Origin: Sphingopyxis sp. TUF1
Lineage (GTDB): Bacteria > Pseudomonadota > Alphaproteobacteria > Sphingomonadales > Sphingomonadaceae
Direction: 5' to 3'
DNA: 64,000 nt
Assembly: GCF_036687315.1 (NCBI RefSeq)
Contig: NZ_CP144683.1
Coordinates: 1,116,001 to 1,180,000 of the forward strand
Shown here: positions 31,954-59,526 of the stretch, piece by piece
Position numbering within the stretch: position 1 is the first letter of the stretch
Layout: each line of letters starts with the position of its first letter
The notes under the pieces: model-generated
The model's input: only the letters and a program-made list of their open reading frames with translations
Databases searched by the model: none
Told to the model about the DNA's origin: nothing
Program-made: the position numbers and the translations under genes

Positions 31954-33315
31954 TCAGCAGATTACCGCCAGCCCACCTAACGAGGTCTCCTTATATTTCT
32001 CCAGCATGTCGGCGCCGGTCCTGCGCATCGCGTCGATGACTTGATCGAGAGAGACGCGGTGGGATCCATCTCCGCTTAGCGCCAGCCGCGAGGCTTCAAT
32101 AGCTTTGACCGCCCCGACCGCGTTTCGCTCGATGCAAGGGACCTGCACGAGACCGCCGACAGGGTCGCAGGTCAGGCCGAGATTATGCTCCATCGCGATT
32201 TCCGCCGCGTTCTCGATCTGGCTGTTCGACCCTCCAAGCGCCGCAGTCAGGCCCCCAGCAGCCATCGAGCAGGCCACACCGACTTCCCCTTGGCAGCCGA
32301 CCTCGGCTCCCGATATCGACGCATTTTCTTTGAAGAGCGATCCGATCGCCGTGGCCGTCAGCAGAAATGTCGCTTCCCCACCAAGGTCCGCCGAGGAATG
32401 GAATTGGCGATAATATTGAAGCACGGCGGGGATGATACCGGCGGCACCGTTTGTGGGTGCGGTGACGACCCGGCCGCCACCCGCATTCTCCTCATTGACT
32501 GCAAGCGCCCAGAGATTGATCCAGTCGAGGGCGACAAGCGGATCATCGCTTTCCCGCGACAGCAGATGGTGGTGGAGGGCGTGAGCACGGCGCCGTACCC
32601 GTAATCCGCCGGGCAATTCGCCGGTGCCCTCGAGGCCCCGGGCAATACAGGCGCTCATTGTCTCCAGCACGCGTTTGATATGGCTTTGGACTTCGGCCTC
32701 GGGTCGCAAGGCTGTCTCATTGGCCCACATGAGCTCAGCGATCGAAAGCCGTTCGCGTTCGGCGGTTTGCAGCAACTCCGCGCCGGAGCTGAAGGGGAAG
32801 CGAAGAGGCCGCCCGATGGTCCGGGCCGCGGTATAATTCTGGTCGGTGTCCTTGACGATCGCTCCGCCGCCGACCGAATAATAGACGGATGTCGCCAGAA
32901 CGCTGCCGCCCTGGTCGAAGAGACTACATCGCATCGCATTCGTGTGAAACGGCATTCGTTCGCGGCGCAGGAAGCGGATATCGCGCGCTTCCACGAACGC
33001 GACCTCCCGCTTTCCCCCGAGCGTCAGCACGCCCCCCGTGCGCGCATCTGCCACAATGTGAGCAATCTCGTCGGGCTCGGCGGTGTCGGGTCTCTCACCG
33101 CTCAGACCGGCGATAACGGCCCAGTCGGTGCCATGCCCGATTCCGGTCAAGGCCAGCGAGCCGAAGAGCTCGACGCTCGCGCGGCCGGCGCGTGCGAGCA
33201 TTCCGGCCGCCTCGCACTCGGCGACAAACTGGCTGCACGCCGTCATCGGTCCCATCGTGTGCGAGCTCGAAGGACCGATGCCGATCTTGAACATATCGAA
33301 CAGGCTGAAGGTCAT
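31954..33315 (-). CDS. sdaA: L-serine ammonia-lyase (single-chain, Fe-S)
   Basis: 453 residues. The beta domain begins [20 protein letters not shown]; the alpha domain carries the catalytic Fe-S cysteines in [23 protein letters not shown] and VQVPCIERN. It converts L-serine to pyruvate and ammonia in the cytosol. It lies 37 bases downstream of the porin gene in the minus-strand module of D-amino-acid genes, where it would clear serine released from peptides. Confidence 0.95.
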
Positions 33316-33352
33316 GGGCGCGCCAGCAATGGATACTGACCGAACACCGACA

Positions 33353-34543
33353 TCATAGCCCGAAGGCGATTTCGGAGCGCAACCCGAAAACCAGCGCGGA
33401 GGCTATCGAGGGGTCAGCAGAGGGATTGAAGATATATTGAATGCTGGGCTGAATGGCGAGCCAGTCCGCCAGCGGTGCTCGATAGGTCATCTCGAGCGCG
33501 ACTTCGGCGCGGTCGGCGCCGTCCCGGCGCCGAAGCGGGGAACTGGTGAAGGCAGCGGCCACGGCAACGCCGAGCACATCGCCCTCTCTCCCCGATATCC
33601 AGTCCGATATGGTGACACCAGCTCCCACGAAGCGCGAGAAATCATTATAGTTTCCGTTCGCGATGCCAATTCGGCCAAAGCCGTCGAGGCGCCCGCCTCC
33701 ATGGTCCGCCAGCGTAAACTCGGCACGCAGGTAAGTGCCCGAGTTCCCTTTTCCCGTCCCGGTCCCGTCGATCCGGTCGAAGCTCGCCGAATAGCGCCAA
33801 TGGCCGAGGAGGAACTTGCCGCCCGCGACCGGTGCCTGCACCTCGCCGACGAGCAGCGCTCCCTCTCCCTTGCCGAACCTTATGGCGGTGCGCGACGGGT
33901 GATCTGGGTTGCCGGGCACGGCGTCCAGCAAGGCCGCGCGCACGACCCATCCTTCCGCAGGCTCCACCGCAAGTCTTGCGGCAAGCGAAGTAGAGGGAAA
34001 GATCGACGGCCCGTTGCGACCGCTTTGCCCGAAGTCGGTTCCGATCCCGTGCCCGCTGCCGACGAAGAGCGACGCGGTATCGAGCACGTCGAATTCTGAA
34101 TTGAGATCATAAAGCCCCGCACGAAGCGAGATATGGTCCCCGAATTTCTGGTCGAGCCAAGCCTCGTACAGGCGGATCGCCGAAACACCCGCTTCGATGT
34201 TGCTCACGCCCTGCGCGTCCCTGACAAGATCACTTATCGAGCGGCCGTTGTTGTACAGACCGTAAAGGCCTGCGGTAGCGCCTTCCCAGCCGAGCAAGGC
34301 GTCGAGATCGGCCCCGACGACTATATCGAAATTGTCCATATAGCGCGACCCGCGCCGCGCGCCGCCGCGCGCGTTGACCATGATTTCTCCGGTGTAGGCG
34401 ATATCGACGGATAGCGGGTCGGCGGGGGCCTTATGTTGTTCCAGCATTTCGACCCGCGGGTGCGGCCGTTCCTCATTGCCGGTTTCGGCGTCCTCGATCG
34501 TGGCGAGCGATGCAAGCGAGAGAAGGGCGAGCGAGGCCGACAT
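33353..34543 (-). CDS. OprB-type carbohydrate-selective porin family protein
   Basis: 396 residues from the ATG at 34543 (GGAGAA upstream). Signal-like MSASLALLSLASLA start, then repeated amphipathic strands (ARAGLYDLNSEFD, FGHG-type loops, SGRNGPSIFPSTSLAARL) and a terminal aromatic/hydrophobic strand typical of OprB barrels; the final residues are AFGL. It would let small substrates cross the outer membrane. Co-directional with sdaA and the deacylase. Confidence 0.78.
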   Translation of the reverse strand: MSASLALLSLASLATIEDAETGNEERPHPRVEMLEQHKAPADPLSVDIAYTGEIMVNARGGARRGSRYMDNFDIVVGADLDALLGWEGATAGLYGLYNNGRSISDLVRDAQGVSNIEAGVSAIRLYEAWLDQKFGDHISLRAGLYDLNSEFDVLDTASLFVGSGHGIGTDFGQSGRNGPSIFPSTSLAARLAVEPAEGWVVRAALLDAVPGNPDHPSRTAIRFGKGEGALLVGEVQAPVAGGKFLLGHWRYSASFDRIDGTGTGKGNSGTYLRAEFTLADHGGGRLDGFGRIGIANGNYNDFSRFVGAGVTISDWISGREGDVLGVAVAAAFTSSPLRRRDGADRAEVALEMTYRAPLADWLAIQPSIQYIFNPSADPSIASALVFGLRSEIAFGL

Positions 34544-34703
34544 CAAAGGTTCTCCAATGAGCCGAAGCGCCGTCGCTCGCGTTGCCTGTTCGCGGCAGGA
34601 CCTTCCATGTGAGTATGACCTGGCGGCTGACAGGGGCGGTGAAAATCATTCGTCATATTGGATCCTCGGAAACGGACAGTGTCGGAGCGAAGGTGCCGGG
34701 GGT

Positions 34704-36215
34704 TCATTTCGGCGACTTGTCGGCGGATTTCGTTCGTCCCCGGACGGGCCGGCCATCACGGCGGTCGCGCCTGATCTCGCCGCCATCGATGAGCAGCGAT
34801 CCCGCGACGAGTACATATTTCATCCCGGTGCTGGGCCGGGCCGGATGGTCGAAATCCGCATGGACCGCGAGCGAAGCCAGATCGAAGGCGACGATATCAG
34901 CGTCCGCGCCCGGCTGGATGCGGCCCTTGCGGCGCATATCCGGGACCGATGGCTCGAGCAGGCGCGCGGGAAGCAGGGTCGCCCGTTCGATCATGTCTCC
35001 GAGCGGGAGCGTTCGACGGTCAAGGACATAGTCCGCGATCACCTTGGTGAAGCTCGCGGCGATCCTCGGATGCGCCATGGCCTCGTCCGGAAGCGGCCAG
35101 CGCGGTGCGGTCAGGGGCTCGTTACCCACAATATAGGGAATCGCGTCGCTCACGATCAGGGACCCGGGAAAGCGGATCGCCTGTTCGATAAAACCGCGCT
35201 GCGTCTCGTCGCGCTCGTCGAGATAATGGATCGCCACGAGCGTAGAGGGAGCCGCCTTGCGCAACCTCTCCAGTTCGGCGCGGTCGCGGACGCGCTCGCC
35301 GGTGGCCACGATCGCAATGTCGCCCGGCTCCAGGTCGAGCAACGGCAGATTGTCGGGATCGAGGAAGGGGGTCGAAATGCGCGTCGACCCGGCCCCCCAG
35401 GGATAGGCTTCGGTCGTGACATGCAGGCCGCGCGCCTGCGCCCCTGCGATCATGGCCAGAATGCGGGGCGTCTCGCGCAGGGCGGAGCTGTTGACGTGAC
35501 AGAGGTGCATTCTCGCGCCGGTGGCCGCGGCGACCCCGATCAACTCGGTGGCGCCTTCGATAACGCCGCGCGGTTCGTGCGTATTCTTCGTCCTGAGATG
35601 CGTGAAGGTCGGCGCATCCCACCGCGCGGCGATGCGCGAGATTTCGAGATATTCGCTGCGGTTGGTATCGGGATGATGACCCAGCGGAAATCCGACGCCG
35701 ATGCCGCCCTCTGCCAATCCTTCGGCCACGAGATCGACGACGCGCCGCGACTCCGCCTCCGGAACTATGCTGTCGGCGCGGCTTCCGAGCAGCGACTGGC
35801 GCGCGCCGAACCAGGACACCGAGAAGCCGTAATTGATGGGCCATCCCGCCGCCGCCATGCGCTCGTAGCTCGCGCCGACAGGCCAGGCGCCGATTTCCAG
35901 TTCAAGTGCCGTGGTCACGCCGTCATGCGCCTGCATCCAGGCGGACGGGATGGTCATGGCGTGGGAATGAACATCGATGAAGCCCGGGGCGACGACGAGA
36001 CCGGAGGCGTCGATCTGTCGCTTCGCCGCGAGCGGACGACGCGATATGGTGACGATCCGTCCGTCCCTTATTCCGATCGAGCGGATCGCATCGAGCCGGG
36101 TTTCGGGGTCGATGACGCGGCCATTGTTGATCGCGACGTCGAACGTCGCTGCTGCCAGCGCGGGCTGGCTTGCCAGACAGAATGCGATCGAGGTGTACAG
36201 AAATCTCTTCATCAT
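34704..36215 (-). CDS. Periplasmic N-acyl-D-amino-acid deacylase family amidohydrolase
   Basis: 503 residues from ATG 36215 (GGGAGG upstream). Signal peptide to about residue 21 (LASQPALA). Amidohydrolase TIM barrel: metal motif GFIDVHSHAM, TFTHLRTKNTHEPRG, MHLCHVNSSA, and a C-terminal beta sandwich (GRIQPGADADIVAFD). The D-aminoacylase/dihydroorotase-like family removes N-acyl groups from D-amino acids, or acts on N-terminal D-residues. The start overlaps the stop of the symporter gene (ATGA), so the two are translationally coupled. Export to the periplasm is unusual for D-aminoacylases. Confidence 0.86.
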   Translation of the reverse strand: MMKRFLYTSIAFCLASQPALAAATFDVAINNGRVIDPETRLDAIRSIGIRDGRIVTISRRPLAAKRQIDASGLVVAPGFIDVHSHAMTIPSAWMQAHDGVTTALELEIGAWPVGASYERMAAAGWPINYGFSVSWFGARQSLLGSRADSIVPEAESRRVVDLVAEGLAEGGIGVGFPLGHHPDTNRSEYLEISRIAARWDAPTFTHLRTKNTHEPRGVIEGATELIGVAAATGARMHLCHVNSSALRETPRILAMIAGAQARGLHVTTEAYPWGAGSTRISTPFLDPDNLPLLDLEPGDIAIVATGERVRDRAELERLRKAAPSTLVAIHYLDERDETQRGFIEQAIRFPGSLIVSDAIPYIVGNEPLTAPRWPLPDEAMAHPRIAASFTKVIADYVLDRRTLPLGDMIERATLLPARLLEPSVPDMRRKGRIQPGADADIVAFDLASLAVHADFDHPARPSTGMKYVLVAGSLLIDGGEIRRDRRDGRPVRGRTKSADKSPK

Positions 36216-37465
36216 GCAGCGCCTCCCAAGGCAGGGGATTTCTCGCCAGGGTCCGGGTTCGGTTCGCGGCGGCCGATGACCGATGTCGCGAGGGCGTTGC
36301 CAACGACGTTGGTCGCGGTGCGCCCCATGTCGAGAAGCTGGTCGATCGCCATGATCAGCATCAGCCCGGCCTGGGGGAGTCCGAACGGGTCGAGTATGCT
36401 CGCAAGCACGACGAGACTCGCGCGCGGCACCGAGGCCATGCCTTTGGAAGCAATCAGAAGCATGAGGGCGAGCAGCATCTGGTCGCCGAACCCCAGCGGC
36501 ACGCCGCAGGCCTGTGCGATGAAGAGCGCACCCAGCGTCATGTACATCATCGAGCCGTCGAGATTGAATGCATATCCGAGCGGCAGGACGAAGGACGACA
36601 CGGGCCTCGGAATGCCGAAGCGGTCGAGGGCCGCGAGCGTGCTGGGGAGCGTCGCTTCGGACGAAGCGGTTGCGAAGCCGACGAGAACCGGCTCCCGGAT
36701 TTCCCGCGCCAGCACCACCGCGCGGCGCCGAAAAATCGCGAAGGCCACGATCGCGAAAAGCAGCCACAATATGGCGAGGCCTGCGTAGAAAAGGGCGGCG
36801 AAGCGTCCCACGCCGAAGAGCACTTCGGGGCCGTTCATGGCGACAAGATGCGCCATCGAGGCAAAAGCCGCGAGCGGGGTCAGACGCATCACATAATGGG
36901 TCACCTTCATCATCGCGTCGGTGAGGACGTCGAGAGCCGTGAGCAACGGTCCGGCCGAAGACCGCATCGAGCCGAGGGCGACGCCGAGGAAGATCGCGAA
37001 GACAACGATCGCGAGCACGTCGTTGCGGGCCATCGCCTCGAAGATCGACTGCGGAACGGCATGAGCGAGAAAGCTCTTGGCGTCGAGCGAGCCGGACGGG
37101 ACGGGCCCGGCCGATGCCGGGACGTCCAATGCGAGCCCGTCTCCGGGGCGAAACAGGTTACCGAGCAGCAGACCCAGCCCGAGCGAGACCGCCGAAGCGG
37201 CGAGAAACCAGGCCATTGCCCGGATTCCGATCCGGCCGACGGCCCCCGCATCGCCGAGCCTCGCGATGCCGGTCACGAGCGTCGCGAAGACAAGCGGGGC
37301 GATCACCATTTTCAGGAGCCGCAGAAACGTGTCGGTAACAAGCGAGAGCGCGCCTCCGATCGCGTCGAGGCGCGGCGGGCTGGCCACGAACAGATGGAGG
37401 AGCCAGCCAGCCGCGACGCCGAGCAGCATGCCTGCGACGATCAGAAGGGCGAACCGGCGTTGCAT
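36212..37465 (-). CDS. Dicarboxylate/amino acid:cation symporter
   Basis: 417 residues with the multi-helix sodium:dicarboxylate symporter plan: FLRLLKMVIAPLVFATLVTG, the re-entrant loop ASSEATLPSTLAALDRFGIP, GYAFNLDGSMMY, and MGRTATNVVGNALAT. GltP/DctA/SstT-like carriers import Glu, Asp, Ser, Thr or C4-dicarboxylates with Na+ or H+. Coupled to the deacylase, so it probably imports the amino acid released in the periplasm. Confidence 0.92.
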   Translation of the reverse strand: MQRRFALLIVAGMLLGVAAGWLLHLFVASPPRLDAIGGALSLVTDTFLRLLKMVIAPLVFATLVTGIARLGDAGAVGRIGIRAMAWFLAASAVSLGLGLLLGNLFRPGDGLALDVPASAGPVPSGSLDAKSFLAHAVPQSIFEAMARNDVLAIVVFAIFLGVALGSMRSSAGPLLTALDVLTDAMMKVTHYVMRLTPLAAFASMAHLVAMNGPEVLFGVGRFAALFYAGLAILWLLFAIVAFAIFRRRAVVLAREIREPVLVGFATASSEATLPSTLAALDRFGIPRPVSSFVLPLGYAFNLDGSMMYMTLGALFIAQACGVPLGFGDQMLLALMLLIASKGMASVPRASLVVLASILDPFGLPQAGLMLIMAIDQLLDMGRTATNVVGNALATSVIGRREPNPDPGEKSPALGGAA

Positions 37466-37743: not shown

Positions 37744-38898
37744 TCACCACCCCCGCCAACGCTCCCAACGGCCTTCGATCCTCCGTCCCCCGGCAGGCGC
37801 CAGATGATAGGCGCCGTGCTGGGCGGCGGTGGCGCACGCGTGGTTCGGCAATATGCGGACCATCGAGCCAATCTGGAGGTCGGGTATCACGGCCGTGCTT
37901 CCCGGCCGCACGCCGATCACCCCATGCTCCTGGTTCGCCTCGAGCATGACAAGATCGGGCCAGGGCCGCCCATCGATGTCGCACACGATGCCATAATGTT
38001 GATCGACGCGCTGCGCCGCCGTGCCGCGGTCGCGTGACATCGCCATCCATCCCGCGTCGACGAGGATGCGGTTCCGGTCGCGCTGGATCGTGTTCACGCT
38101 GGCGAGCACCGAAAGGGCGATGTCGTCGACGGCGCACGCTCCGACCCCGGCCATGACAAGATCGAAAAACACGAAGACGCCGGCGCGCACCTCGGTGACG
38201 CCGGCGAGTTCCTCGGCAAAGAGCGCCGTCGGCGTGGAGCCGAGACTGACATGATCGACCTGGTGTCCCGCGTCGCGAAGGATGTCGGCCGCGGCGAGGA
38301 CGGCGTCGCGCTCCTTGCGGGCATAGTGCCGGATTTCGGCAGTGCTGGTGGAGGCATAGCTGCCTCCGGCATGCGTGATGACACCGGCCGGGCGGATTCC
38401 GCCGCGCAGCTGCTCGGCGATATGTCGAAGCGCCTCGACATCTCCCGGACAGACCCCGGCGCGATGCCCGTCCGAATCGACTTCGATCAGCGCCGGGATC
38501 GGCGTATCTCCGGTACCCGCAACCTGTGAGAGAACCGCCGCCGCTTCTGCATTGTCGACGATCACCTTGAGATCGACGCCGCGCCGCCGCAAGGCCTCGA
38601 CGCGCGCAACCTTGTTGGGCGTCAGCCCAACCGCATAAAGTATGTCACGAAAGCCTGCCGCAGCCAGCTCTTCGGCTTCCTGCAAGGTCGAAACCGTGAC
38701 GGGTCCATGCTCGGCGTCGAGCATGCGCCGGATCACCTCGAACGATTTGGCGCTTTTCACATGCGGGCGAAAGCCGACCTCGAGCGACTTCATCCGGTCG
38801 CGCATGCGGGCGATATTGCGTTCCATCCGCTCCGGATCGAGCAGCAGGGCCGGGGTCTGCAAATCCTCGAAGGCCATGGTTTCGAAATCATTCGGCAC
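37744..38898 (-). CDS. D-threonine aldolase / D-serine dehydratase family PLP enzyme
   Basis: 384 residues from GTG 38898, preferred because AAAGGA lies 8-13 bases upstream; an ATG at 38877 has none. Fold-type III PLP barrel: DLQTPALLLDPERMERNI, PLP Lys48 in RPHVKSAK, and the C-terminal beta domain with the zinc pair His-x-Cys in LPNHACATA, as in eukaryotic-type D-serine dehydratase (DSD1). It should convert D-serine to pyruvate and ammonia, or cleave D-threonine. Divergent from a LysR gene. Confidence 0.9.
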   Translation of the reverse strand: MPNDFETMAFEDLQTPALLLDPERMERNIARMRDRMKSLEVGFRPHVKSAKSFEVIRRMLDAEHGPVTVSTLQEAEELAAAGFRDILYAVGLTPNKVARVEALRRRGVDLKVIVDNAEAAAVLSQVAGTGDTPIPALIEVDSDGHRAGVCPGDVEALRHIAEQLRGGIRPAGVITHAGGSYASTSTAEIRHYARKERDAVLAAADILRDAGHQVDHVSLGSTPTALFAEELAGVTEVRAGVFVFFDLVMAGVGACAVDDIALSVLASVNTIQRDRNRILVDAGWMAMSRDRGTAAQRVDQHYGIVCDIDGRPWPDLVMLEANQEHGVIGVRPGSTAVIPDLQIGSMVRILPNHACATAAQHGAYHLAPAGGRRIEGRWERWRGW

Positions 38899-38975
38899 GC
38901 GGTCAGTCCTTTTTTGTGTCCCCGCCGCTTTACAAAATGGCGAGCCGCGCGCCATGCTCCAGACCTAATCCCGAT

Positions 38976-38994
38976 ATTAAGGCTGGCCTGAATG
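38976..38994. promoter_or_regulatory. Candidate LysR operator overlapping the lysR start codon
   Basis: ATTAAGGCTGGCCTGAATG, sharing ATTAAGG and the TxAATG end with the palindrome at 37676-37695. It lies in the divergent control region of the D-amino-acid dehydratase gene and covers the lysR ATG (38992), a place suited to autorepression. Confidence 0.55.
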
Positions 38995-39897
38995 CTCACC
39001 GCAGAGGATCTGCAACTGTTCGCAACGATCGGCGCCTCCCCTTCGCTTGCCGCTGCGGCCCGAAGCCTGGGGGTCACGCCGCCTGCCGTCAGCCAGCGGT
39101 TGAAACTGATCGAAGGCCGGCTTGGGCTGCGGCTGGTGGAACGAAGCGGCAAGGGGCTCAGGATGACGAGCGATGGCGAACTCATCGTCGCCCGGTCCGC
39201 CGAAATCCTGGGCCAGGTCAGCGAACTCGAGGAAGAACTCGCCGCCCGGCGCGGCGTCGCGAAGGGTAGCCTGCGCATTGTGGCGCCGCTCGGCTTTGGC
39301 CGGCGCTTCATTACGCCGCTGGTCGCGGCCTATCATGGTGAACGCCCGGACATGCGCGTCGAACTGCTGCTCTCCGACCGGCCCGGCATCGATCTGAGCA
39401 CCGCCTGCGACATATTGATCCGGATCGGCGAGCAACGCGACAGCGACGAGATCGCAACCGTGCTCGCGCCGAACCGGCGTATCCTTTGCGCGGCGCCCGC
39501 CTATCTGGCCCGCTGCGGTACCCCGACAACGCCGAGCGACCTGCTTGCCCATCGCTGCATCGCGCTTCGGGAGAATGACGAGGATGTCACTTTATGGCGG
39601 TTTCGCAGCCGGCAAGACAATGCGGTCAGCGTTCGCGTCCCCGCCGTCCTTTCCAGCAATGACGGCGAGGTCACCAAGGCCTTGGCGCTGGCAGGGCTTG
39701 GCGTCACGATAAGGTCGGAATGGGACGTGTCCGAGGATTTCCGGCGCGGCGACCTTATTCCCCTCCTAGAGGACTGGGCGCTCCCCGACGCGAACATAAC
39801 GGCGCTGCTCGGGCCCAAAGGCGCGAGGTCGGCGCGGGTGAGCGACTTTCTCGGCTTGCTGCGCAAGTCGCTGAAACCGGTCCCCTGGCGATACTGA
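38992..39897 (+). CDS. LysR family transcriptional regulator
   Basis: 301 residues. The N-terminal winged helix (DLQLFATIGASPSLAAAARSLGVTPPAVSQRLKLIEGRL) and a type 2 periplasmic-binding-like effector domain follow the LysR plan. The start codon lies within 100 bases of the divergent D-amino-acid dehydratase start and inside a candidate operator. It probably controls the D-amino-acid module in response to a substrate. Confidence 0.92.
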   Translation: MLTAEDLQLFATIGASPSLAAAARSLGVTPPAVSQRLKLIEGRLGLRLVERSGKGLRMTSDGELIVARSAEILGQVSELEEELAARRGVAKGSLRIVAPLGFGRRFITPLVAAYHGERPDMRVELLLSDRPGIDLSTACDILIRIGEQRDSDEIATVLAPNRRILCAAPAYLARCGTPTTPSDLLAHRCIALRENDEDVTLWRFRSRQDNAVSVRVPAVLSSNDGEVTKALALAGLGVTIRSEWDVSEDFRRGDLIPLLEDWALPDANITALLGPKGARSARVSDFLGLLRKSLKPVPWRY

Positions 39898-41231: not shown

Positions 41232-41328
41232 GACATCCCTCCAGGGTGTAGAAACCAAAGGGAGCGCCGACGTCTGTATGATCGCCGGCGCTCCCCTCAG
41301 AAGCGCGATACGGGGAGAGCGCGCGCGC

Positions 41329-45308: not shown

Positions 45309-45312
45309 GGCC

Positions 45313-50000: not shown

Positions 50001-50119
50001 GAGATGCGACCTCCCACTTGACGCCCGCACGCCCGGCGCCCAGAATCCCGACGATTCCTCTGCCCCTCTCGCCGTGCGCTGCGATGTCAGCCTAACGGGC
50101 CGAAGGCGGTGCTGACAAA

Positions 50120-50131
50120 TCAACATTTTGA
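50120..50131. promoter_or_regulatory. Candidate LysR site in the divergent region
   Basis: TCAACATTTTGA, a short palindrome (TCAA/TTGA) fitting the T-N(9-11)-A LysR core, 30 bases before the lysR start and about 120 bases from the divergent hydrolase start. Confidence 0.4.
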
Positions 50132-50161
50132 AATCGTCCCATCGAAGGCTTGAAAGCATCC

Positions 50162-52245: not shown

Positions 52246-52434
52246 ATCCTGCCCCGGTCGCAGCTCTCGAGCCGCATTTGCGATCTGTTGAAGTCGCCGC
52301 TCTGTCGCGATCGGGAGGATCATTCAAATCAGTAATCTCGAAGCCAGACATTGAAACTTATCAATTGTCGGACGGCAAGCGCCGCCTATCATGATCGGAG
52401 CTTGGCTAAGCATGGCAGGCAGGGGGCGCGCATC

Positions 52435-53922
52435 GTGACGAAGACAAAATCCGGGCGGATCGGCGCCGCGATATTCGCAGCCGCGCTTGCGGTCGGAGCG
52501 GCGCATGGCGTGGCGGCCCGTTCCCCGTCGGCAGGTTCGCTCAGCGTCCAACCCGCGCTCCTTGCAATCGAGGACGGCTCGCTCGTCGCGATCCGGAGCG
52601 GCCGGTTCACAGTGTCAGAGAAGCGCGCGAAACGCGGCGGCCGAGTCATCGATCTTCCTTTCGTTCAAATCCCCTCGGCGAGCCGGGATCCGGCCCGGCC
52701 GGTCATTTTCCTGCTCGCCGGCGGCCCGGGCAGTTCGTGGATCGACTTTTTCAACGGGCCGAAGGGGCGCGAGCAGGTGCTCTTCTATCGCCAGTTCGCC
52801 GACGTCGTCCTGTTCGACCAGAGAGGCGCGATCCACGCCTCCCCGATGCTCGACTGTCCCGCAAGCGTCAAATTCCCGAACGACAGGCTGCTCGGCGAAG
52901 CGGAATATAGCGACGCGATGCGCAAGGTCGCCTCAGCCTGCCGAAAAGGCTGGACCGACGCCGGCGTCGACCTGCGATCCTATGAGACGATCGCCAATGC
53001 GGCCGATGTCGACGCCCTCCGCCGCGCGCTCGGTTATCGCAAGATCAGCCTCGTCGCCGGTAGTTACGGATCTCATCTCGCGGTCGCGCTGATGCGTTAT
53101 CACCCCGAGGCGATCGAGCGCGCGATCATCTGGGGCATGGAAGGCCCGGACGATACCTATGATATCCCCGACGGAATTCTTGCGAGCCTCCGGACGCAGG
53201 CCGCGGCCGCCGAGGCCGACGCCGGGCTGCGATCGCGGCTGCCGCCGGGGGGATTGATCGCGGCGCTCGGCACCGTGATGGGGCGGCTTCGCGAACGTCC
53301 CGTCGAGGTGACCACAGGGACTGGCGCTGAACCGGTCAAGATTCTCCTCGGACCGCTCGATCTCCAGCGCGCGATGACGACGCTTGCCGATCGCAACGGT
53401 AAATGGCCGGCCTTCGTGACCGCGCTGTACGAGGGCGATTACCGGCCGCTCGCCGAAATTACGCTGCGCCAGCGCGATATCCGGCTCAGTCGCAGCGTTC
53501 TTTATGCCATGGATTGTGCTTCGGGCCTGTCCGAAACGCGGCGGCAGCTTATCCGGGACAGCAAGGCCGCGGCTCTGCTCGGCGACATTAACCTCCCCTA
53601 TTTCGCGACATGCGATATCTGGGACAGCCCCGATCTGGGGGAGACTTTTCGCTCCCGCCTCGACACCCGCATACCGATCCTTCTTTTTCACGGTGACTGG
53701 GACGTATCGACCCCGCTTGCGAACAGCCGCGACGCCATCAAGGGCTTTGCGAATGGCAAGTTCGCTGTCGTGCATGGCGGTACCCATGGGGTCTGGGAGG
53801 AATTGTTCGAACATTGGGCACCGATACGTCCCACCGTGCGCGCGTTCATGCTCGGGCAGAATCCTGACCTGCCGACAGACATCGATCTGCCGCCTGTGAC
53901 CTATCAGCTACCGGGAAAATGA
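52435..53922 (+). CDS. Exported S33 alpha/beta-hydrolase (aminopeptidase-like)
   Basis: 495 residues from GTG 52435 (AGGGGG upstream). Signal peptide GAAIFAAALAVGAAHGVAA. Oxyanion loop LAGGPGSSW, nucleophile elbow VAGSYGSHLA, Asp in FHGDWDVSTPL and His in HGGTHGVWEEL: a complete triad in the layout of prolyl/tripeptidyl aminopeptidases. It should clip N-terminal residues from peptides in the periplasm. First gene of the plus-strand module C, 7 bases before the OCD gene. Confidence 0.88.
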   Translation: MTKTKSGRIGAAIFAAALAVGAAHGVAARSPSAGSLSVQPALLAIEDGSLVAIRSGRFTVSEKRAKRGGRVIDLPFVQIPSASRDPARPVIFLLAGGPGSSWIDFFNGPKGREQVLFYRQFADVVLFDQRGAIHASPMLDCPASVKFPNDRLLGEAEYSDAMRKVASACRKGWTDAGVDLRSYETIANAADVDALRRALGYRKISLVAGSYGSHLAVALMRYHPEAIERAIIWGMEGPDDTYDIPDGILASLRTQAAAAEADAGLRSRLPPGGLIAALGTVMGRLRERPVEVTTGTGAEPVKILLGPLDLQRAMTTLADRNGKWPAFVTALYEGDYRPLAEITLRQRDIRLSRSVLYAMDCASGLSETRRQLIRDSKAAALLGDINLPYFATCDIWDSPDLGETFRSRLDTRIPILLFHGDWDVSTPLANSRDAIKGFANGKFAVVHGGTHGVWEELFEHWAPIRPTVRAFMLGQNPDLPTDIDLPPVTYQLPGK

Positions 53923-53929
53923 CGCCGAC

Positions 53930-54886
53930 ATGACGAAACCGATCCAGATTAGCGAAGAAGAGATCATCGCCCTTGTCGAGCCCGCCGCGATGCATGGCGT
54001 CATGGAGGATGTGTTCAAAGCGATGGCATCGGGCCATGCACGCAACTTCCCGGTCATCCGCGAGCAACTGGACATCCCGGCGCCGATCTTCGGGTTCAAA
54101 TCGGGATATGACACCAGCGATTCCATTCTCGGGCTGAAGGCCGGTGGCTATTGGCCGACCAACAGCGAGCGCGGCCTTGCCAATCACCAGTCGACGGTCA
54201 TCCTGTTCGATGCGGACAGCGGACGGCTCCGGGCGCTCGTCGCGGGCAACCGGCTCACCGCCCTTCGCACCGCTGCCGCGAGCGCGGTCTCGATCGCCCG
54301 TCTCGCGCGCAACGATGCCGCAACGCTGTCGATCCTCGGTGCGGGGGGACAAGCCCCCTTCCAGATCCGGGCGGCGCTGGCGCAGCGCGCCTTCACCAGG
54401 GTCCTGATCGCAAACCGCTCCCGCCGGCGCGCGGAAGATCTTGCCGCGAGCCTTGCCGACCTCGACGTCGAAATTCGGGTTACCGATGTCGAGGTCGCAG
54501 CAAGCGCCGCCGATGTCCTCATCACCATTACCAGCAGCTTCGAGAGCCAGATCCACGCGGGCTGGATACGTCCCGGAACCCACATAGCCGCCATGGGCAC
54601 CGATACGAGAGGCAAGCGCGAGCTGCCGTCCGAGCTGGTCGCGGGTGCGCAGCTGTTCACCGACGAGGTCGCGCAGGCCATCACGATCGGCGAGTGCCAG
54701 CACGCATATGCGACCGGGGACATCTCGCAGGAGCAGATCACGCCGCTCGGCGATGTCATCCTTGGCCGACATGCCGGCCGGCCGTCGGAGGATGCGATCA
54801 CCCTGTTCGACGGGACGGGGGTGGGACTACAGGACCTCTTCGCCGCCGACTATGCCCTGAAATGCGCTGAACGCCTCGTGCCCTGA
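53930..54886 (+). CDS. Ornithine cyclodeaminase/mu-crystallin family protein
   Basis: 318 residues. NAD-binding Rossmann part with LSILGAGGQAPFQIRAAL, preceded by VAGNRLTALRTAAASAV. The active-site region reads AAMGTDTRGKRELPS; family members with this type of site include ketimine reductases, alanine dehydrogenases and opine dehydrogenases as well as cyclodeaminases. Second gene of module C. Substrate undecided. Confidence 0.86.
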   Translation: MTKPIQISEEEIIALVEPAAMHGVMEDVFKAMASGHARNFPVIREQLDIPAPIFGFKSGYDTSDSILGLKAGGYWPTNSERGLANHQSTVILFDADSGRLRALVAGNRLTALRTAAASAVSIARLARNDAATLSILGAGGQAPFQIRAALAQRAFTRVLIANRSRRRAEDLAASLADLDVEIRVTDVEVAASAADVLITITSSFESQIHAGWIRPGTHIAAMGTDTRGKRELPSELVAGAQLFTDEVAQAITIGECQHAYATGDISQEQITPLGDVILGRHAGRPSEDAITLFDGTGVGLQDLFAADYALKCAERLVP

Positions 54887-54926
54887 TGCGGGCGCGAGAA
54901 CAGTCAGGATCGGACCCGGCCAACCA

Positions 54927-55214
54927 ATGAGCATGACGCCCTTCCTCTGGATCACGGCAATTATCGCGATCGTCGGCGGCGTTGCCGCGAGCTACGTCGC
55001 GAGCCGCCACCAGCAGATTCTGAAAAGCCCGCCATCGGCGGCGCGCCTGCGGATCACCCAGTGGCTTTGCGGGATCTCGGCCTATGTGCTGCTGTGCCAG
55101 ATCGTCGCTAAGCTGACCGCGGTCTTCATCCTTGTCACCTTCGCCATGTTGTTTGCGTCGCTGCTGCCGCCCGCGATCGGCTATGTCAGGGCGAAAGCAG
55201 GAACCGGCAGATGA
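54927..55214 (+). CDS. Small three-helix membrane protein beside PepSY gene
   Basis: 95 residues with hydrophobic segments at about 6-24, 45-63 and 65-86 and a basic C-terminus. It overlaps the following small membrane gene (ATGA), which overlaps the PepSY gene, so the three form a unit. The layout resembles the small membrane proteins that accompany PepSY iron-uptake proteins, but I cannot name a family. Confidence 0.65.
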   Translation: MSMTPFLWITAIIAIVGGVAASYVASRHQQILKSPPSAARLRITQWLCGISAYVLLCQIVAKLTAVFILVTFAMLFASLLPPAIGYVRAKAGTGR

Positions 55215-55513
55215 GCCCCGGCACGCAGCAGGGAACCGACTGGCTCGGGCGGGGCACCGCCGGATTTGTGCTGGGCTTCGTTATCGCGCTTGGACTCTCG
55301 GGCCTGTTCGCGCGCTTCGGCCCGGGCGAGATCGGCGTACCGTCCGGACAGGCCGAACTCACGATGTGGCTGGTCCCGCCGATCTGGGCTTCGATCTTCA
55401 TTGGATCCTTTCTGTTCGGTTCGGCCCGACGTGCGCTTCTGATCCTCACCGCCGTGGCGCTTCTTCTCTGGTCGCCCTTCATTGTGACGGCCTTGCAAGG
55501 CCTGCTGCCATGA
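55211..55513 (+). CDS. Small membrane protein coupled to PepSY gene
   Basis: 100 residues with membrane segments at about 17-35, 52-70 and 74-96 (FVLGFVIALGLSGLF; PPIWASIFIGSFLF; ALLILTAVALLLW). Start and stop overlap its neighbours by 4 bases each. Probably an accessory subunit of the PepSY protein, similar in size and place to DUF3649 proteins; the assignment is tentative. Confidence 0.65.
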   Translation: MSPGTQQGTDWLGRGTAGFVLGFVIALGLSGLFARFGPGEIGVPSGQAELTMWLVPPIWASIFIGSFLFGSARRALLILTAVALLLWSPFIVTALQGLLP

Positions 55514-57153
55514 AGATCAAAACAAGCACCGCTCTCGTCTACAGGACCCTGCATGGCTGGTTCGGCCTGGCGGTCGGTCTCACGCTGTTCATAGCCTTTT
55601 TCGCCGGCTCGCTCAGCGCCTTCAAGGGGCCGATCCAGCTATGGGCATCACCCCCCGCCCCGCCCCTTGCGACACCGCTGGCTCAAACTCCGCTCCTCAT
55701 CGAACGCGCGCTTCGAGCGCACCCAGAGGCGGCGAACGAGTTTCTGGTCATGCTCGAGCCAAGCCCCGCCCATCCGGGGAGGATCAGCTGGAAGCGGCCG
55801 GGCGAGGCCGCGGGTCATGACAGTATCCCGCCGCGCCTGTTTGCCGACCTCGACAAGGGTGGACATATAAAGATCACCGATGACGGCCCGTCTTCGGTTG
55901 CGCAGCAGATCGTACAGCTCCATCTGAAGATGGGCTTGCCCTTCGACGAAGCGATCGCGATGCCGATCGCCGGAGCGCTTTCAATGCTCTATTTCGCGAT
56001 GCTGGTTTCGGGCACGATCATCCTTCTGCCGAGCATGGCGTCCAATCTGTTCGCGATGCGCTTCTCCGGCGGTATCAAACGCATGTGGCTCGATCTGCAC
56101 GCGAGCCTCGGCCTGTTCAGCCTCCCCTTCCATGTCGTCATGGCGCTGACGGCGATCGCGTTCAGCTGGCAGAATTATATCGAGCAGGTGCAAGCCGTGG
56201 CGTTCGGCACCGACTCGCCCCCCCTATCTGCCAGCCCGCTGCCGGTCGATCCGGCGGCGGGTCTGATGACACCGCAGCAAATATTGTCGGGCGTCGCCCG
56301 CGCAGCGCCCGGCTTCAAGCCACAGGCTCTCCTCTACAAACGCGACGCGAGCGGCCGCTATCAGGTCCAGGTCTTGGGCACCGACCCCCGTTACGGCCTG
56401 CGCGGCCCGACATCCGGGATCGCCGGGGTCGATCCTTACAGCGGCGCGATCATCTCGACGGTGAGATTGCCCGGGCAGCAGGATGCATGGCGCTCCACCG
56501 AAGCCAATATTCACGCCTTGCACTTCGGGAACTATGGCGGGCTTCCGGTCCGCTGGGCCTATTTTCTGCTCGGTCTCGGCGGCTGCGGGCTCATCTTCAG
56601 CGGCAATCTCCTGTGGATCGAGAGCCGGAGACGGAAATCCAGAAAGGGCGACGCGGGCCCTGTGGCCCAACCCCGTTCGACCCGATTGCTCGGAGCGCTT
56701 GGCGTCGGCGCGCCGCTCGGCTGCATCGCCGGCATCGCAGCCACCATCGCGGCAGCCAAACTGCTGACAGGGGTCGTCGCGGACCTGCCGGGCTGGCATC
56801 TTCGGATTTATTATGCCCTGTTCGGGGTCGCGCTCCTCTGGCCCTTCGTTCGCGGCGTAGCGCGGGGCGGCATCGAACTGCTGTTCCTGACCGCCGGCAT
56901 GCTGGCATTGATCCCCTTGACCAGTCTCGCCTCGGCCCTGGTCCCGATCGGATGGAACCACGGACTGGCCGGGCTGCCGATCGATATCACGGCACTCGCC
57001 GGCGCCGTCATCGCCTTGATGATGGCGAAGCGCGTGAAACTGCGGAGCCGCAGTGAGCCCACCGACAGCCTCTGGCATATTCCCGAGGGAAACCGGACGA
57101 ACGCGGCAGACCGGGCGGGCTTCGCCGATGAGGGAGGACAGGTTGCGCACTAA
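55510..57153 (+). CDS. PepSY-associated membrane protein
   Basis: 547 residues from ATG 55510 (ATGA overlap). PepSY_TM plan: first helix TLHGWFGLAVGLTLFIAFFAGSL, PepSY periplasmic parts, LDLHASLGLFSLPFHVVMAL, HALHFGNYGG and RWAYFLLGLGGCGLIFSGNLLW, then four extra C-terminal helices. Conserved His residues suggest haem or metal contact. Relatives (PiuB/FoxB type) reduce or release siderophore iron at the inner membrane; others are uncharacterised. Confidence 0.86.
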   Translation: MKIKTSTALVYRTLHGWFGLAVGLTLFIAFFAGSLSAFKGPIQLWASPPAPPLATPLAQTPLLIERALRAHPEAANEFLVMLEPSPAHPGRISWKRPGEAAGHDSIPPRLFADLDKGGHIKITDDGPSSVAQQIVQLHLKMGLPFDEAIAMPIAGALSMLYFAMLVSGTIILLPSMASNLFAMRFSGGIKRMWLDLHASLGLFSLPFHVVMALTAIAFSWQNYIEQVQAVAFGTDSPPLSASPLPVDPAAGLMTPQQILSGVARAAPGFKPQALLYKRDASGRYQVQVLGTDPRYGLRGPTSGIAGVDPYSGAIISTVRLPGQQDAWRSTEANIHALHFGNYGGLPVRWAYFLLGLGGCGLIFSGNLLWIESRRRKSRKGDAGPVAQPRSTRLLGALGVGAPLGCIAGIAATIAAAKLLTGVVADLPGWHLRIYYALFGVALLWPFVRGVARGGIELLFLTAGMLALIPLTSLASALVPIGWNHGLAGLPIDITALAGAVIALMMAKRVKLRSRSEPTDSLWHIPEGNRTNAADRAGFADEGGQVAH

Positions 57154-58429
57154 ACTCATGCTGGGCGCATTGGCGCTGGCGGCCGCGGCTCCCGCGCTCG
57201 CGAACGCTTCACCCAAGCCTTCCGCAACCACATCCCTTGCGTCCCCGGACCTTGCGAGAGCGGGCGAGGCGCTGCGCATCGATCATGAACGATTTGTCGG
57301 AGAGGTGATTGCGCTCGCCGAAATCCCGTCACCACCCTTCGGCGAAGGCGCACGCGCCGCTGCTTATGCGGAGATGATGCGCCTGAGCGGACTGACCGAC
57401 GTTCGGCTCGACGGCATCGGCAATGTGATCGGGGTTCGGCGAGGCCGGGACCGTTCGAAGCCTCCCCTCGTCATTGGGGCGCACCTCGACACCGTGTTCC
57501 CCGAAGGCACCGACGTTCGTGTCCGTCGCGAGGGCACCCGTCTGTTCGCGCCGGGCATAGGCGATGACGCGCGCGGTCTCGCCACCCTGCTCGCCTTCGC
57601 GCGCGCGATGGAGGCCGCGCGGATCCTCCCCGATCGCGATATCATGTTCGTGGGCACGGTCGGAGAGGAAGGAGCAGGGAATCTTCGCGGCGTGCGCTTT
57701 CTCTTCGAAAACGACCCGCGTGCCCGCACAGCGGCAGGCTTTATCGCGGTCGACCTCAATGGTTCCGACCGGATCGTGACCCGTCATGTCGGCTCGAGAC
57801 GGTATCGCATCATTTTCACCGGACCCGGCGGGCATAGTTTCGACAAGTTCGGCATCGTCAATCCGGCGGTACCGCTGGCGAAGACAATCGCCGGTCTCTA
57901 TGCGATCCCGGTCCCCGATACACCCCGCACGACCTATTCAGCCAGCATGATCGGCGGCGGAACGTCGATCAATGCGATCCCCGCCAGGGTTCATGTCGAC
58001 ATCGACATTCGATCGCTGGCACCCGCCGAAATCGAGCGGATCGACAGCGAACTGCGGCGGATTGCCGAAGCCGCGACGGCAGCGGAGAATGGCGCGCGAT
58101 CGACCGAATTCGGCAGGGTGACGGTGACATATGAGAGCATTGGCGATCGGCCCGCAGCCACTGTCAGCGAGACCTCGGGTCTTGGCGCGATCGCATTTAC
58201 GGCAAGCCGGGCGGAGGGGTTCGCTCCCCTGTTCACAGCCGTATCGACCGACGCGAACCTCCCGGCCAGCCTCGGCATTCCTGCCATCGCGATCGGGACA
58301 GGCGGGCAAGGCGGCGGCGAGCATTCACCGGAGGAATATATCGACGTCGAAATCGAAGAGAGCCTGCGGGGTTTGCGGGCCGGCCTCGCGACCATCCTGG
58401 CGGCCGCTTCTGCCCAGTCGGCCCTCTGA
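57128..58429 (+). CDS. Exported M20 family metallopeptidase
   Basis: 433 residues from ATG 57128; a TTG at 57143, just after AGGGAGGACAGG, is an equally good start and still leaves the signal peptide LMLGALALAAAAPALA. The M20 zinc site is complete: GAHLDTVFPEG, GIGDDARGLA, GEEGAGNLRG and a late His in GGEHSPEEY, with the dimerisation domain between. It overlaps the end of the PepSY gene. A periplasmic peptidase or amidase in module C. Confidence 0.88.
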   Translation: MREDRLRTKLMLGALALAAAAPALANASPKPSATTSLASPDLARAGEALRIDHERFVGEVIALAEIPSPPFGEGARAAAYAEMMRLSGLTDVRLDGIGNVIGVRRGRDRSKPPLVIGAHLDTVFPEGTDVRVRREGTRLFAPGIGDDARGLATLLAFARAMEAARILPDRDIMFVGTVGEEGAGNLRGVRFLFENDPRARTAAGFIAVDLNGSDRIVTRHVGSRRYRIIFTGPGGHSFDKFGIVNPAVPLAKTIAGLYAIPVPDTPRTTYSASMIGGGTSINAIPARVHVDIDIRSLAPAEIERIDSELRRIAEAATAAENGARSTEFGRVTVTYESIGDRPAATVSETSGLGAIAFTASRAEGFAPLFTAVSTDANLPASLGIPAIAIGTGGQGGGEHSPEEYIDVEIEESLRGLRAGLATILAAASAQSAL

Positions 58430-58476
58430 CAGAGGCCATTCCTTCCTTACACCCATATCCAGATCAAGAGGTCATT

Positions 58477-59526
58477 ATGCCACCTGTCGCGTCCCCGCTT
58501 GCCTATGTCCCTTTCGTTAGCGTCGAAAACATGATGCGCCTCGTCCATCATTTCGGGTTGGAGGAAATGCTCGTCGAAATGACCGACGCCATCGAGGCGG
58601 ACTATCGCCGCTGGCATCTGTTCGAGAAGTCGCCGCGGCTGGCATCGCATTCACGCGAAGGCGTGATCGAGTTGATGCCGACCTCGGACGGCGAGATCTA
58701 CAGCTTCAAATATGTGAACGGACATCCGAGCAACACGGCCAAAGGCTTTCAAACGGTAGCTGCCTTCGGCATGCTCGCCGGTGTCGAAACGGGTTATCCC
58801 CTGATGCTGACCGAGATGACGCTTTTGACGGCCTTGCGAACGGCGGCGACCTCGGCGATGGCGGCACGGCATCTCGCGCCGGCCGGCGCGCGGACCATGG
58901 CCATGATCGGCAATGGAGCCCAGGCCGAGTTCCAGGCGCTCGCCATGAAGGCCGTGGTTGGTATCACCGAGGTTCGGCTCTACGATATCGACATGTCCGC
59001 CACTCGGAAGGCGGCGCGCAACCTTGGCGAAAGCGGCCTGCGCGTCATCGCCTGCAGCAGCGCGGAAGAGGCGATCGAGGGCGCCGATATCATTACCACC
59101 TGCACGGCGGACAAGGCTTATGCGACGATCCTGACCGACAATATGGTAGGCGCCGGAATTCACATCAATGCGATCGGCGGCGACTGTCCCGGCAAGACCG
59201 AACTCCATAAAGATATTCTGGGCCGGGCCCGGACCTTTGTGGAGTTCGAGCCGCAAACCCGGATCGAGGGCGAAATTCAGCAAATGGGCCCCGATTATCC
59301 TGTCATCGAGTTCTGGCGCGTCTTGTCGGGAGAGGAAGCAGGGCGAACGGACAAGGACCAGATCACATTGTTCGATAGCGTCGGCTTCGCCACCGAGGAT
59401 TTCTCGGCGCTGCGCTATATTTACGAGAAGATCCAGGGCACCAGCTTCTTTCAGAATATCGACATGCTTGCGGACCCCGATGATCCGAGAGATCTTTTCG
59501 GCATGCTCACTCGTGCAGCCGCCTGA
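58477..59526 (+). CDS. Ornithine cyclodeaminase
   Basis: 349 residues, the length of true OCDs. MTEMTLLTALRTAATSA, the Rossmann IGNGAQAEFQALA and the active-site motif GGDCPGKTEL (234-243), identical to that of characterised ornithine cyclodeaminase, where the Asp is catalytic. It converts L-ornithine to L-proline and ammonia using NAD internally. Last gene of the island; a 50-base spacer separates it from the M20 gene. Confidence 0.9.
   Translation: MPPVASPLAYVPFVSVENMMRLVHHFGLEEMLVEMTDAIEADYRRWHLFEKSPRLASHSREGVIELMPTSDGEIYSFKYVNGHPSNTAKGFQTVAAFGMLAGVETGYPLMLTEMTLLTALRTAATSAMAARHLAPAGARTMAMIGNGAQAEFQALAMKAVVGITEVRLYDIDMSATRKAARNLGESGLRVIACSSAEEAIEGADIITTCTADKAYATILTDNMVGAGIHINAIGGDCPGKTELHKDILGRARTFVEFEPQTRIEGEIQQMGPDYPVIEFWRVLSGEEAGRTDKDQITLFDSVGFATEDFSALRYIYEKIQGTSFFQNIDMLADPDDPRDLFGMLTRAAA

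Follow-up and report, generated by a model that had tools for sequence, protein, structure and literature searches.

The mlr clusters represent a described system in which sphingomonads dismantle a non-ribosomal peptide, microcystin, which contains D-residues. MlrB has reportedly been modelled on the penicillin-recognising enzyme family, whose fold is S12-like. Hydroxyaspartate and iminosuccinate chemistry is known from the bhcRABCD cycle, found for example on plasmid pB of Sinorhizobium chiapasense (L042), and from the D-threo-3-hydroxyaspartate dehydratase of the 3wqc family. Bacterial growth on siderophores (DFOB, ferrichrome A) has been reported for decades, according to the sections consulted of PMC10866069. 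The degraders include Microbulbifer (amphibactins), Mesorhizobium loti and Azospirillum (DFOB), and Pseudomonas FC-1 (ferrichrome A), and peptide or amide bonds are cut, sometimes for growth (sections of PMC11800396 and PMC10866069); the island described here, in contrast, is known from its genes alone. In the literature searched, including those sections of the two papers, no named gene set for peptidic siderophore digestion was met. Likewise, no paper was found that combines three of D-aminoacylase, TonB-dependent receptor, D-serine dehydratase and ornithine cyclodeaminase.

This report addresses a segment of Sphingopyxis sp. TUF1, analysed within a window of 64,000 nucleotides to which all positions refer. 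Our reading, held at a probability of roughly 0.55, is that of a 28.1-kb genomic island at the 3' end of trmB, with a composite catabolic cargo for peptides carrying D-residues and acylated ends. On the best reading, breakdown of D-residue peptides would release hydroxyaspartate, serine and ornithine. A siderophore with hydroxyaspartate and ornithine is a candidate substrate, as is a different non-ribosomal peptide. The island represents a concrete, deletable 28-kb candidate for the digestion of a peptidic siderophore, with enzymes named for unusual residues. Even if another peptide is the substrate, it would show that the family puts together loci for D-peptide use out of exchangeable modules, loosely resembling polysaccharide utilisation loci. 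It also provides a setting other than the glycolate cycle for a reductase of the BhcD type.

The accessory island at the 3' end of trmB

The insert was defined against a same-genus genome (G042) and spans 31708-59846, or 28139 bp, its left edge lying within the final codons of trmB. In G042 the empty site is seen directly: window 28781-31707 aligns with G042 2632-5547 and window 59847-62201 with G042 5565-7917, so that the flanks are nearly contiguous, with 17 bp between them, and the trmB-ending sequence resumes at window position 59847. The segment is an accessory genomic island inserted at the trmB 3' end, as the first-pass annotation had claimed; the gene set it placed at 31954..59526 is real, while the insert itself is slightly larger. 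In a second same-genus genome (G122), trmB is immediately followed by an integrase, which opens a different insert at this site. Pfam scans of the island proteins gave no integrase, and neither flanking direct repeats (att) nor a tRNA were found at the island in a search that short or degenerate repeats could escape. Base composition is not distinct (GC 0.61-0.66 within the island, 0.61-0.69 beyond it), and a recent foreign origin by composition was rejected because of this lack of difference.

The gene set exceeds chance when judged against the 3.47 Mb chromosome, on which both of the two OCD-family matches and two of the three D-ser_dehydrat matches lie in the island. The TonB receptor alone means little, because such receptors have 47 matches in the genome.

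Gene content and predicted reactions

Island proteins were scanned with Pfam and NCBIfam models, and solved structures were compared by sequence for some of them. The gene content and sequence families observed directly in this way confirm the earlier parts list (TonB receptor, porin, PepSY protein, six hydrolases, dehydratases, threonine-synthase-like enzyme, OCD and LysR proteins), every member of which was matched. An SDF symporter, a molybdoenzyme, a cytochrome b561 and two small open reading frames had been absent from it.

The left end of the island, on the minus strand, encodes an iron-sulfur L-serine ammonia-lyase (31954..33315; TIGR00720 631 bits, cut-off 345), an OprB-family outer-membrane porin (33353..34546; Pfam/NCBIfam) and a D-aminoacylase-type amidohydrolase (34704..36212; NF006560 575 bits, cut-off 340). 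The latter has a signal-like N-terminus by eye, its closest solved structure is N-acyl-D-glutamate deacylase (3gip, 93 bits), and its gene start overlaps the stop of an SDF (DctA/GltP-type) dicarboxylate or amino-acid symporter (36212..37465, minus strand), for which the best NCBIfam models fall below their cut-offs. The next minus-strand gene (37744..38955) encodes a PLP enzyme closest in sequence to D-threo-3-hydroxyaspartate dehydratase (DTHADH), with 340 bits over 373 residues to 3wqc against 171 bits to the D-serine dehydratase 3anu. It conserves the NHACAT stretch, whose His and Cys we take to be the metal ligands. Unlike the described dehydratase, the island enzyme sits in a peptide-catabolic setting, and its activity is predicted.

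The regulator LysR1 (38992..39897, plus strand; Pfam) is divergent from module A. Beyond it, all on the minus strand, lie a D-serine deaminase-like PLP enzyme of the 3gwq type (39936..41258; 256 bits), the TonB-dependent receptor (41329..43653), a sulfite-oxidase/MsrP-family molybdoenzyme (43831..44568; Pfam) and a cytochrome b561-type membrane subunit (44568..45308; Pfam/NCBIfam). The molybdoenzyme has a conserved HSCERGW and, by eye, a twin-arginine-like signal with a lipobox-like Cys, and is predicted to be periplasmic. These are followed on the same strand by an Amidohydro_2 hydrolase, AH2, with a twin-arginine-like signal by eye (45313..46725; Pfam), and by two S12 (beta-lactamase-fold) hydrolases with signal-like N-termini, S12b (46814..48463; SLTK; Pfam) and S12a (48453..50159; SLSK; start uncertain; Pfam).

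LysR2 (50150..51052, plus strand; Pfam) is in turn divergent from module B, and a threonine-synthase/dehydratase-like PLP enzyme, here PALP, follows on the minus strand (51109..52323; Pfam/NCBIfam). The remaining genes lie on the plus strand: an S33-like alpha/beta hydrolase with a signal-like N-terminus (52351..53922; Pfam/NCBIfam), OCD1 (53930..54886), two small proteins, membrane-like by eye, with no Pfam match (54927..55214 and 55211..55513), a PepSY_TM membrane protein (55510..57153; Pfam), an M20 metallopeptidase/deacylase with a signal-like N-terminus (57128..58429; Pfam/NCBIfam) and OCD2 (58477..59526). A signal hydrophobicity scan separates the classes poorly, giving 1.64-2.26 for the exported candidates and 1.50-1.55 for the presumed cytoplasmic OCD1, D-serine deaminase and PALP.

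By sequence, the two OCD-family proteins differ in type. OCD2 is classed as a true ornithine cyclodeaminase, scoring 573 bits against the curated cut-off of 350 (NF005762). OCD1 is classed as a BhcD-type iminosuccinate reductase: NF045643 is its best model by far, at 410 bits under a cut-off of 500, the next model reaching 182; it scores 289 bits against structure 6rqa, shares 54% identity with an annotated BhcD, and clusters with BhcD in a tree with support 100/99. The earlier description of two OCD-family and two D-serine-dehydratase-type proteins stands for both pairs, the latter both matching Ala_racemase_N/D-ser_dehydrat, and is sharpened for OCD1, OCD2 and the enzyme at 37744-38955. Because DTHADH-like and BhcD-like enzymes are present, the list of residues was extended to 3-hydroxyaspartate.

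The reactions assigned to the island enzymes are those of their families. Small products would enter through the OprB porin and larger ones through the TonB receptor, cutting would take place in the periplasm by the exported S12, S33-like, M20, AH2 and D-aminoacylase-type hydrolases, and the SDF symporter may take in acidic D-amino acids. Dehydration of D-3-hydroxyaspartate in the cytoplasm would give an imine that passes to oxaloacetate, or the imine could go to L-aspartate via the BhcD-like reductase; D-serine and L-serine would yield pyruvate, and ornithine would yield proline. The direction of flow, the substrates and the service of three modules to one substrate class are what we infer. 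Three of the points against the catabolic-island reading are these: the island Pfam matches include no inner-membrane peptide transporter, the molybdoenzyme is without a place in the scheme, and the two LysR regulators suggest separate induction. Sulfonate or cysteate catabolism, which would use a TauE exporter with the sulfite-oxidase-family protein, was dropped because TauE and a third regulator, LysR3, lie outside the insert and occur in G042 without it, and because the molybdoenzyme falls far below the sulfite-dehydrogenase cut-offs. It falls far below the MsrP cut-off as well.

Recurrence and separability of the modules

Recurrence of similar sets was observed directly in the family. Twenty loci anchored on D-Ser-dehydratase homologues were compared with 40 control stretches; 12 gene families were counted and Fisher values obtained for 6. 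The 20 loci represent 17 genomes (two each in G046, G083 and G085) and are phylogenetically not independent, two of them are short (L031 only 9.8 kb, L023 19.1 kb), test and control hits were pooled to make the profiles, and the control places were chosen round-number coordinates unmatched by genome. Within these bounds, S12 and D-aminoacylase-type proteins were each found in 7/20 anchored loci against 2/40 controls, and the OCD family in 4/20 against 0/40, which bears out the proposed association of these families with D-Ser-dehydratase homologues. TonB receptors occurred in 11/20 against 11/40. PALP (2/20 against 0/40) did not reach significance, none of the 20 held an S33, molybdoenzyme or PepSY homologue, and 8/20 lacked all of S12, D-aminoacylase type, OCD and PALP. 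Some anchored loci also hold the D-specific peptidase families M55 and M15 with TonB receptors. Much of the island set is repeated, with TonB receptors, in L034 and L064; a single stretch of L064 carries D-aminoacylase-type, PALP and OCD-family proteins, an M55 D-aminopeptidase, a D-Ser deaminase homologue, an FAD oxidase, S12 and TonB.

Homologues of OCD1, sought in the family genomes at E 1e-50, were found in four other genomes. In three of them a DTHADH homologue (L034, L026) or a dehydratase-like PALP gene (L034, L036) lies no more than 10 kb away, the best model for the L036 PALP being hydroxyaspartate ammonia-lyase; the stretch of the fourth, L035, holds neither. In a same-genus locus (L060), DTHADH adjoins a PALP gene. 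Hydroxyaspartate need not be the substrate of the parallel loci, since the OCD proteins of L034, L036, L026 and L035 fall outside the pair formed by BhcD and the OCD1 of the window; that of L066 groups with EutC, and that of L064 forms a long branch. Of 16 records of plasmid relatives of PALP, the three examined are all Streptomyces, and two of the three have a Rid-family gene nearby (next but one in L041, about 3.6 kb off in L050), which points to no clear function.

The first-pass annotation had treated the island as one system, with comparative synteny as its check and independent occurrence of the modules as counting against it. In the genomes searched, no second copy of the full set turned up, and pieces of it occur alone, which in part is the outcome named as counting against one system: within the stretches examined, the LysR1/dehydratase pair recurs in L024, and the trio of AH2, cytochrome and molybdoenzyme in L002, L004 and L018, each without the rest of the island. 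The idea of an inseparable system is therefore not upheld, and the island is regarded as a composite. AH2 was dropped as a synteny handle for the whole island because it was found only in the own genome in both samples (1/149 family genomes, 1/398 phylum genomes). A scan of named genomes gave 19 AH2 relatives, of which 3 keep the trio; it is common to Sphingomonas colocasiae and Steroidobacter relatives. In 10 of the 19, the stretch examined also holds a homologue of SDF type (32-33% identical); the stretches of L003, L006 and L019 are truncated at contig ends. The plasmid locus of Sphingobium TomTYG65 (L039) combines an ornithine cyclodeaminase 79% identical to OCD2 and an AH2 relative 52% identical with a TonB receptor, AsnC, an M14 peptidase and PutA. 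It differs in that homologues of the hydroxyaspartate enzymes, S12 and the molybdoenzyme were not found in its 25-kb stretch, and its OCD is 31% identical to OCD1.

These patterns bear on a possible, though rather doubtful, alternative, in which the trmB end is an integration hot spot holding two or three unrelated catabolic cassettes with no joint pathway or common substrate. The separate LysR regulators, the divergent operons, the solitary pair and trio, and the integrase-first insert of G122 all suit such a hot spot, whereas chemically matching enzyme classes recur as a group in both L064 and L034 and are over-represented near D-Ser-dehydratase homologues, and relatives of OCD2 and AH2 co-occur on the Sphingobium plasmid.

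Alternative substrates and systems

Apart from the preferred reading of a composite catabolic island for D-residue peptides, the island could serve the salvage of D-peptides from cell-wall peptidoglycan instead of non-ribosomal peptides, which we regard as unlikely. S12a, the only S12 protein compared, matches best among structures a PBP-related beta-lactamase, then D-Ala-D-Ala carboxypeptidases and alkaline D-peptidase, and M15 and M55 peptidase domains occur in sister loci. The dedicated enzymes, however, fit hydroxyaspartate, serine and ornithine rather than D-alanine or diaminopimelate, and D-Ala oxidase and muropeptide permease are absent from the island Pfam/NCBIfam matches.

The siderophore idea of the earlier note agrees with the island in residue composition only, which matches ornibactin- and variochelin-type siderophores; against it, the island receptor scores 140.3 bits with the TonB-siderophore model, under the cut-off of 223.5. 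Its fullest form appears improbable: a siderophore-eating system would import a hydroxamate/hydroxyaspartate siderophore of the ornibactin, malleobactin or variochelin type, PepSY would strip the iron, the molybdoenzyme and cytochrome b561 would reduce periplasmic hydroxamates from N-OH to N-H, and the hydrolysed backbone would be consumed residue by residue, with the dehydratase and iminosuccinate reductase taking hydroxyaspartate, the serine ammonia-lyase serine, and the ornithine cyclodeaminase ornithine. Recycling of the strain's own siderophore, by import, PepSY reduction and digestion of the used ligand, is very improbable. The chromosome does hold an NRPS cluster at about 702-725 kb that encodes an MbtH-like protein and, at 304.6 bits, an ornithine/lysine N-monooxygenase, and the island contributes PepSY_TM and ornithine cyclodeaminase; this cluster, however, lies about 0.4 Mb away with its own TonB receptor beside it, and the receptor score counts here too.

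A variant beta-hydroxyaspartate cycle for glyoxylate or glycolate shares the BhcD-like reductase and BhcC-related folds and is rejected as largely refuted, since BhcB and BhcC stay under their cut-offs (genome-wide best 234 bits against 550 for BhcB; for BhcC, the island's D-Ser-type enzymes reach 105 and 78 bits against 690), BhcA and any aminotransferase are missing from the island Pfam matches, and the island has many exported hydrolases and, where L042 has BhcR, LysR regulators.

As for the mlr clusters, the Pfam scans of the island gave no M81 (MlrC-type) domain and no POT or major-facilitator transporter. An M81/MlrC-type gene is present in one sister locus, L065.

Probable insertion at the end of trmB

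The window lies at positions 1116001-1180000 of a single 3.47 Mb chromosome. The alignment with G042, a genome of the same genus, stops at window position 31707, within the final trmB codons, and restarts at 59847, leaving a gap of 17 bp in G042 between the two breakpoints and the same gene order beyond, past the window end. Therefore, 28,139 bp were inserted in TUF1 or lost from G042. The presence/absence difference is almost certainly real, and it very probably represents an insertion here rather than a loss in G042. The accessory island proposed by the first-pass annotation is supported, and its interval matches this segment almost exactly.

In G122, another genome of the genus, the alignment with the window reaches 31808 and is followed by an integrase (Arm-DNA-bind_3 and Phage_integrase), with ring-hydroxylating dioxygenase genes some 9 kb beyond it and the conjugation genes TrbI, CagX, VirB8 and TrbL about 26-31 kb on (L051-L052, downstream of trmB); these genes occupy the place that the island has in the window. 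A mobile element thus seems to use the trmB end in this close relative, and the site is perhaps an integration hot spot within the genus. No integrase was found among the proteins scanned in the window, nor a tRNA or attachment repeat in the window, nor a GC anomaly of the island; for this reason, entry through an integrative element is something we only infer. The rightmost 320 bp or so of the insert (59527-59846) do not align to the G042 stretch, and a frame other than that of the adjoining ornithine cyclodeaminase encodes a short tail-like peptide, which could be a gene remnant.

Modules and enzymes of the island

All protein classes claimed in the first reading were found with Pfam and NCBIfam, each at its claimed place. 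That list gains an SDF-family symporter (36212-37465), a molybdoenzyme of the sulfite-oxidase family (43831-44568), a cytochrome of b561 type (44568-45308) and, immediately ahead of the PepSY gene, a pair of small membrane-like proteins (54927-55214 and 55211-55513). The genes form three blocks. Module A (38955 to 31954, minus strand), divergent from the regulator LysR1, contains a D-threo-3-hydroxyaspartate dehydratase-like enzyme (DTHADH), the SDF symporter, a D-aminoacylase-type protein, an OprB porin and an L-serine ammonia-lyase. Module B (50159 to 39936, minus strand), divergent from LysR2, contains two S12 proteins, the Amidohydro_2 hydrolase AH2, the cytochrome b, the molybdoenzyme, a TonB receptor and a D-serine deaminase. 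Module C carries a threonine-synthase-like enzyme (PALP) on the minus strand and, on the plus strand, an S33-like hydrolase, a BhcD-like reductase, the two small proteins, PepSY, M20 and ornithine cyclodeaminase. Signal-like N-termini of both S12 proteins, S33, M20, the TonB receptor and the molybdoenzyme come from a simple hydrophobicity scan, which sets them poorly apart from presumed cytoplasmic proteins, and those of AH2 and the D-aminoacylase type were judged by eye.

The TonB receptor carries little weight because such receptors are abundant in this genome (47 matches). The amino-acid enzymes weigh more against chance, as both OCD-family matches and two of the three D-ser_dehydrat matches of the chromosome are inside the island. 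The third D-ser_dehydrat gene (L070:8734-9879) lies about 42 kb past it.

DTHADH (37744-38955) scores 340 bits to D-threo-3-hydroxyaspartate dehydratase, 306 to a predicted aldolase/racemase (3llx) and 171 to D-serine dehydratase. The reductase at 53930-54886 scores 410 bits against the model of BhcD, an iminosuccinate reductase (cut-off 500; next model 182), and 289 bits against a solved iminosuccinate reductase; its identity to annotated BhcD proteins reaches about 54-56%, and an 11-row tree places it with BhcD (support 100/99). The protein at 58477-59526 is an ornithine cyclodeaminase per curated cut-off, and that at 39936-41258 is closest to D-serine deaminase (3gwq). The D-aminoacylase-type protein is above the cut-off of NF006560, a model also named D-glutamate deacylase, and its nearest solved structure is an N-acyl-D-glutamate deacylase, at just 93 bits. 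PALP is closest to threonine synthases, under the cut-offs of those models. Hydroxyaspartate is thus a new element relative to the earlier residue list, and the chance that it is a genuine substrate of the island enzymes falls slightly short of even.

Recurrence of the gene set

We compared 20 loci anchored on D-serine-dehydratase homologues (14 DTHADH, 6 D-serine deaminase; window excluded) with 40 arbitrary control stretches of 20 kb, using p values that are uncorrected for multiple tests and ignore kinship among loci. LysR was present in 8/20 anchored loci vs 2/40 controls (p 0.001), S12 and the D-aminoacylase type each in 7/20 vs 2/40 (p 0.004 for each), OCD in 4/20 vs 0/40 (p 0.010), TonB in 11/20 vs 11/40 (p 0.037) and PALP in 2/20 vs 0/40 (p 0.11). 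Two or more of the four families S12, D-aminoacylase type, OCD and PALP occurred together in 5/20 vs 0/40 (p 0.003). For M20 (2/20 vs 0/40) and SDF (1/20 vs 0/40) we give counts alone; homologues of the molybdoenzyme, PepSY and S33 were found in none of the 20 loci or 40 controls.

The clearest parallels are L064 and L034. The former holds a D-aminoacylase-type protein, PALP, a Beta-lactamase2 protein, OCD, an M55 D-aminopeptidase, a D-serine deaminase homologue, an FAD oxidase, two S12 and one TonB receptor; the latter combines PALP, S12 and DTHADH with a POT transporter, a TonB homologue and an OCD protein that scores best with the BhcD model (260 bits). Additional M81, M55 and M15 peptidase domains occur in L065 and L067. 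In the tree, the OCD proteins of the parallel loci fall outside the window/BhcD pair, which counts against a common substrate.

Counting the own genome in, DTHADH homologues occur in 14/149 family genomes (E 1e-50) and 18/60 genus genomes (E 1e-60), OCD1 (the BhcD-like reductase) in 5/149 family genomes (E 1e-50), D-serine deaminase in 7/149 (E 1e-70), and AH2 in 1/149 (E 1e-50) and in 1/398 phylum genomes (E 1e-25). AH2 has 19 named relatives in other genomes. An SDF-type homologue lies in 10/19 of these stretches, every one of them from a MAG with Gemmatimonadetes/Gemmatimonadales or Palauibacter in its title. In Sphingobium TomTYG65, an AH2 relative is accompanied by PutA, a TonB receptor, an M14 peptidase and an ornithine cyclodeaminase 79% identical to that of the island. 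The trio of AH2, cytochrome b561 and molybdoenzyme (43831-46725) is kept in 3/19 loci, from Sphingomonas colocasiae (TonB receptor upstream), Peristeroidobacter soli and a Steroidobacter MAG, the last two with a weak ChuX/HutX match directly downstream (28.7 and 27.1 bits, cut-off 25). On rhizobial plasmids, where 9 of 16 matching records were examined (L037, L038, L043-L049) and counts come from incomplete gene tables, M20 and ABC-transporter genes are each listed in at least 8/9 AH2 stretches, M24 (Xaa-Pro peptidase family) and aspartate ammonia-lyase each in at least 4/9, and asparaginase and the CapA family each in at least 3/9, hinting at a substrate derived from aspartate or asparagine.

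What recurs is the type of gene set rather than this exact system. An accessory island serving acylated peptides with D-residues, as the first pass proposed, is a reasonable reading; a single system dedicated to one compound claims too much, because modules are interchangeable and some stand alone. We put at about 0.7 the probability that the island serves mainly to break down peptides or D-amino acids; like our confidence in the island and its substrates, this is a judgement rather than a calculation.

A siderophore as a possible substrate

A siderophore is a reasonable candidate since the residues match: passages of the respective sources give D-hydroxyaspartate, L-serine and ornithine as the amino acids of ornibactin (PMC6117501), and hydroxyaspartate, serine, proline and hydroxyornithine in variochelins (PMC10999976), and others record siderophores serving bacteria as carbon source (PMC10866069) and enzymatic cutting of a peptidic siderophore (PMC11800396). 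However, the ornithine in both is N-hydroxylated and acylated, and the island TonB receptor is under the cut-off of the siderophore model; a siderophore therefore stays a candidate and is unlikely to be the natural substrate. Reduction of hydroxamate to amide is described in a fungus, in a passage where the authors suggest a transient ferrous iron route and lysates gave no sign of an enzyme (PMC10866069); the same reaction by the island molybdoenzyme would be speculation. Elsewhere on the chromosome, at 702-725 kb (L111, L112), lies an NRPS cluster that shows four condensation-domain matches and encodes both an MbtH-like protein and an L-lysine/L-ornithine N-monooxygenase (PF13434, 304.6 bits), a content suggesting that the strain's own product may be of hydroxamate type.
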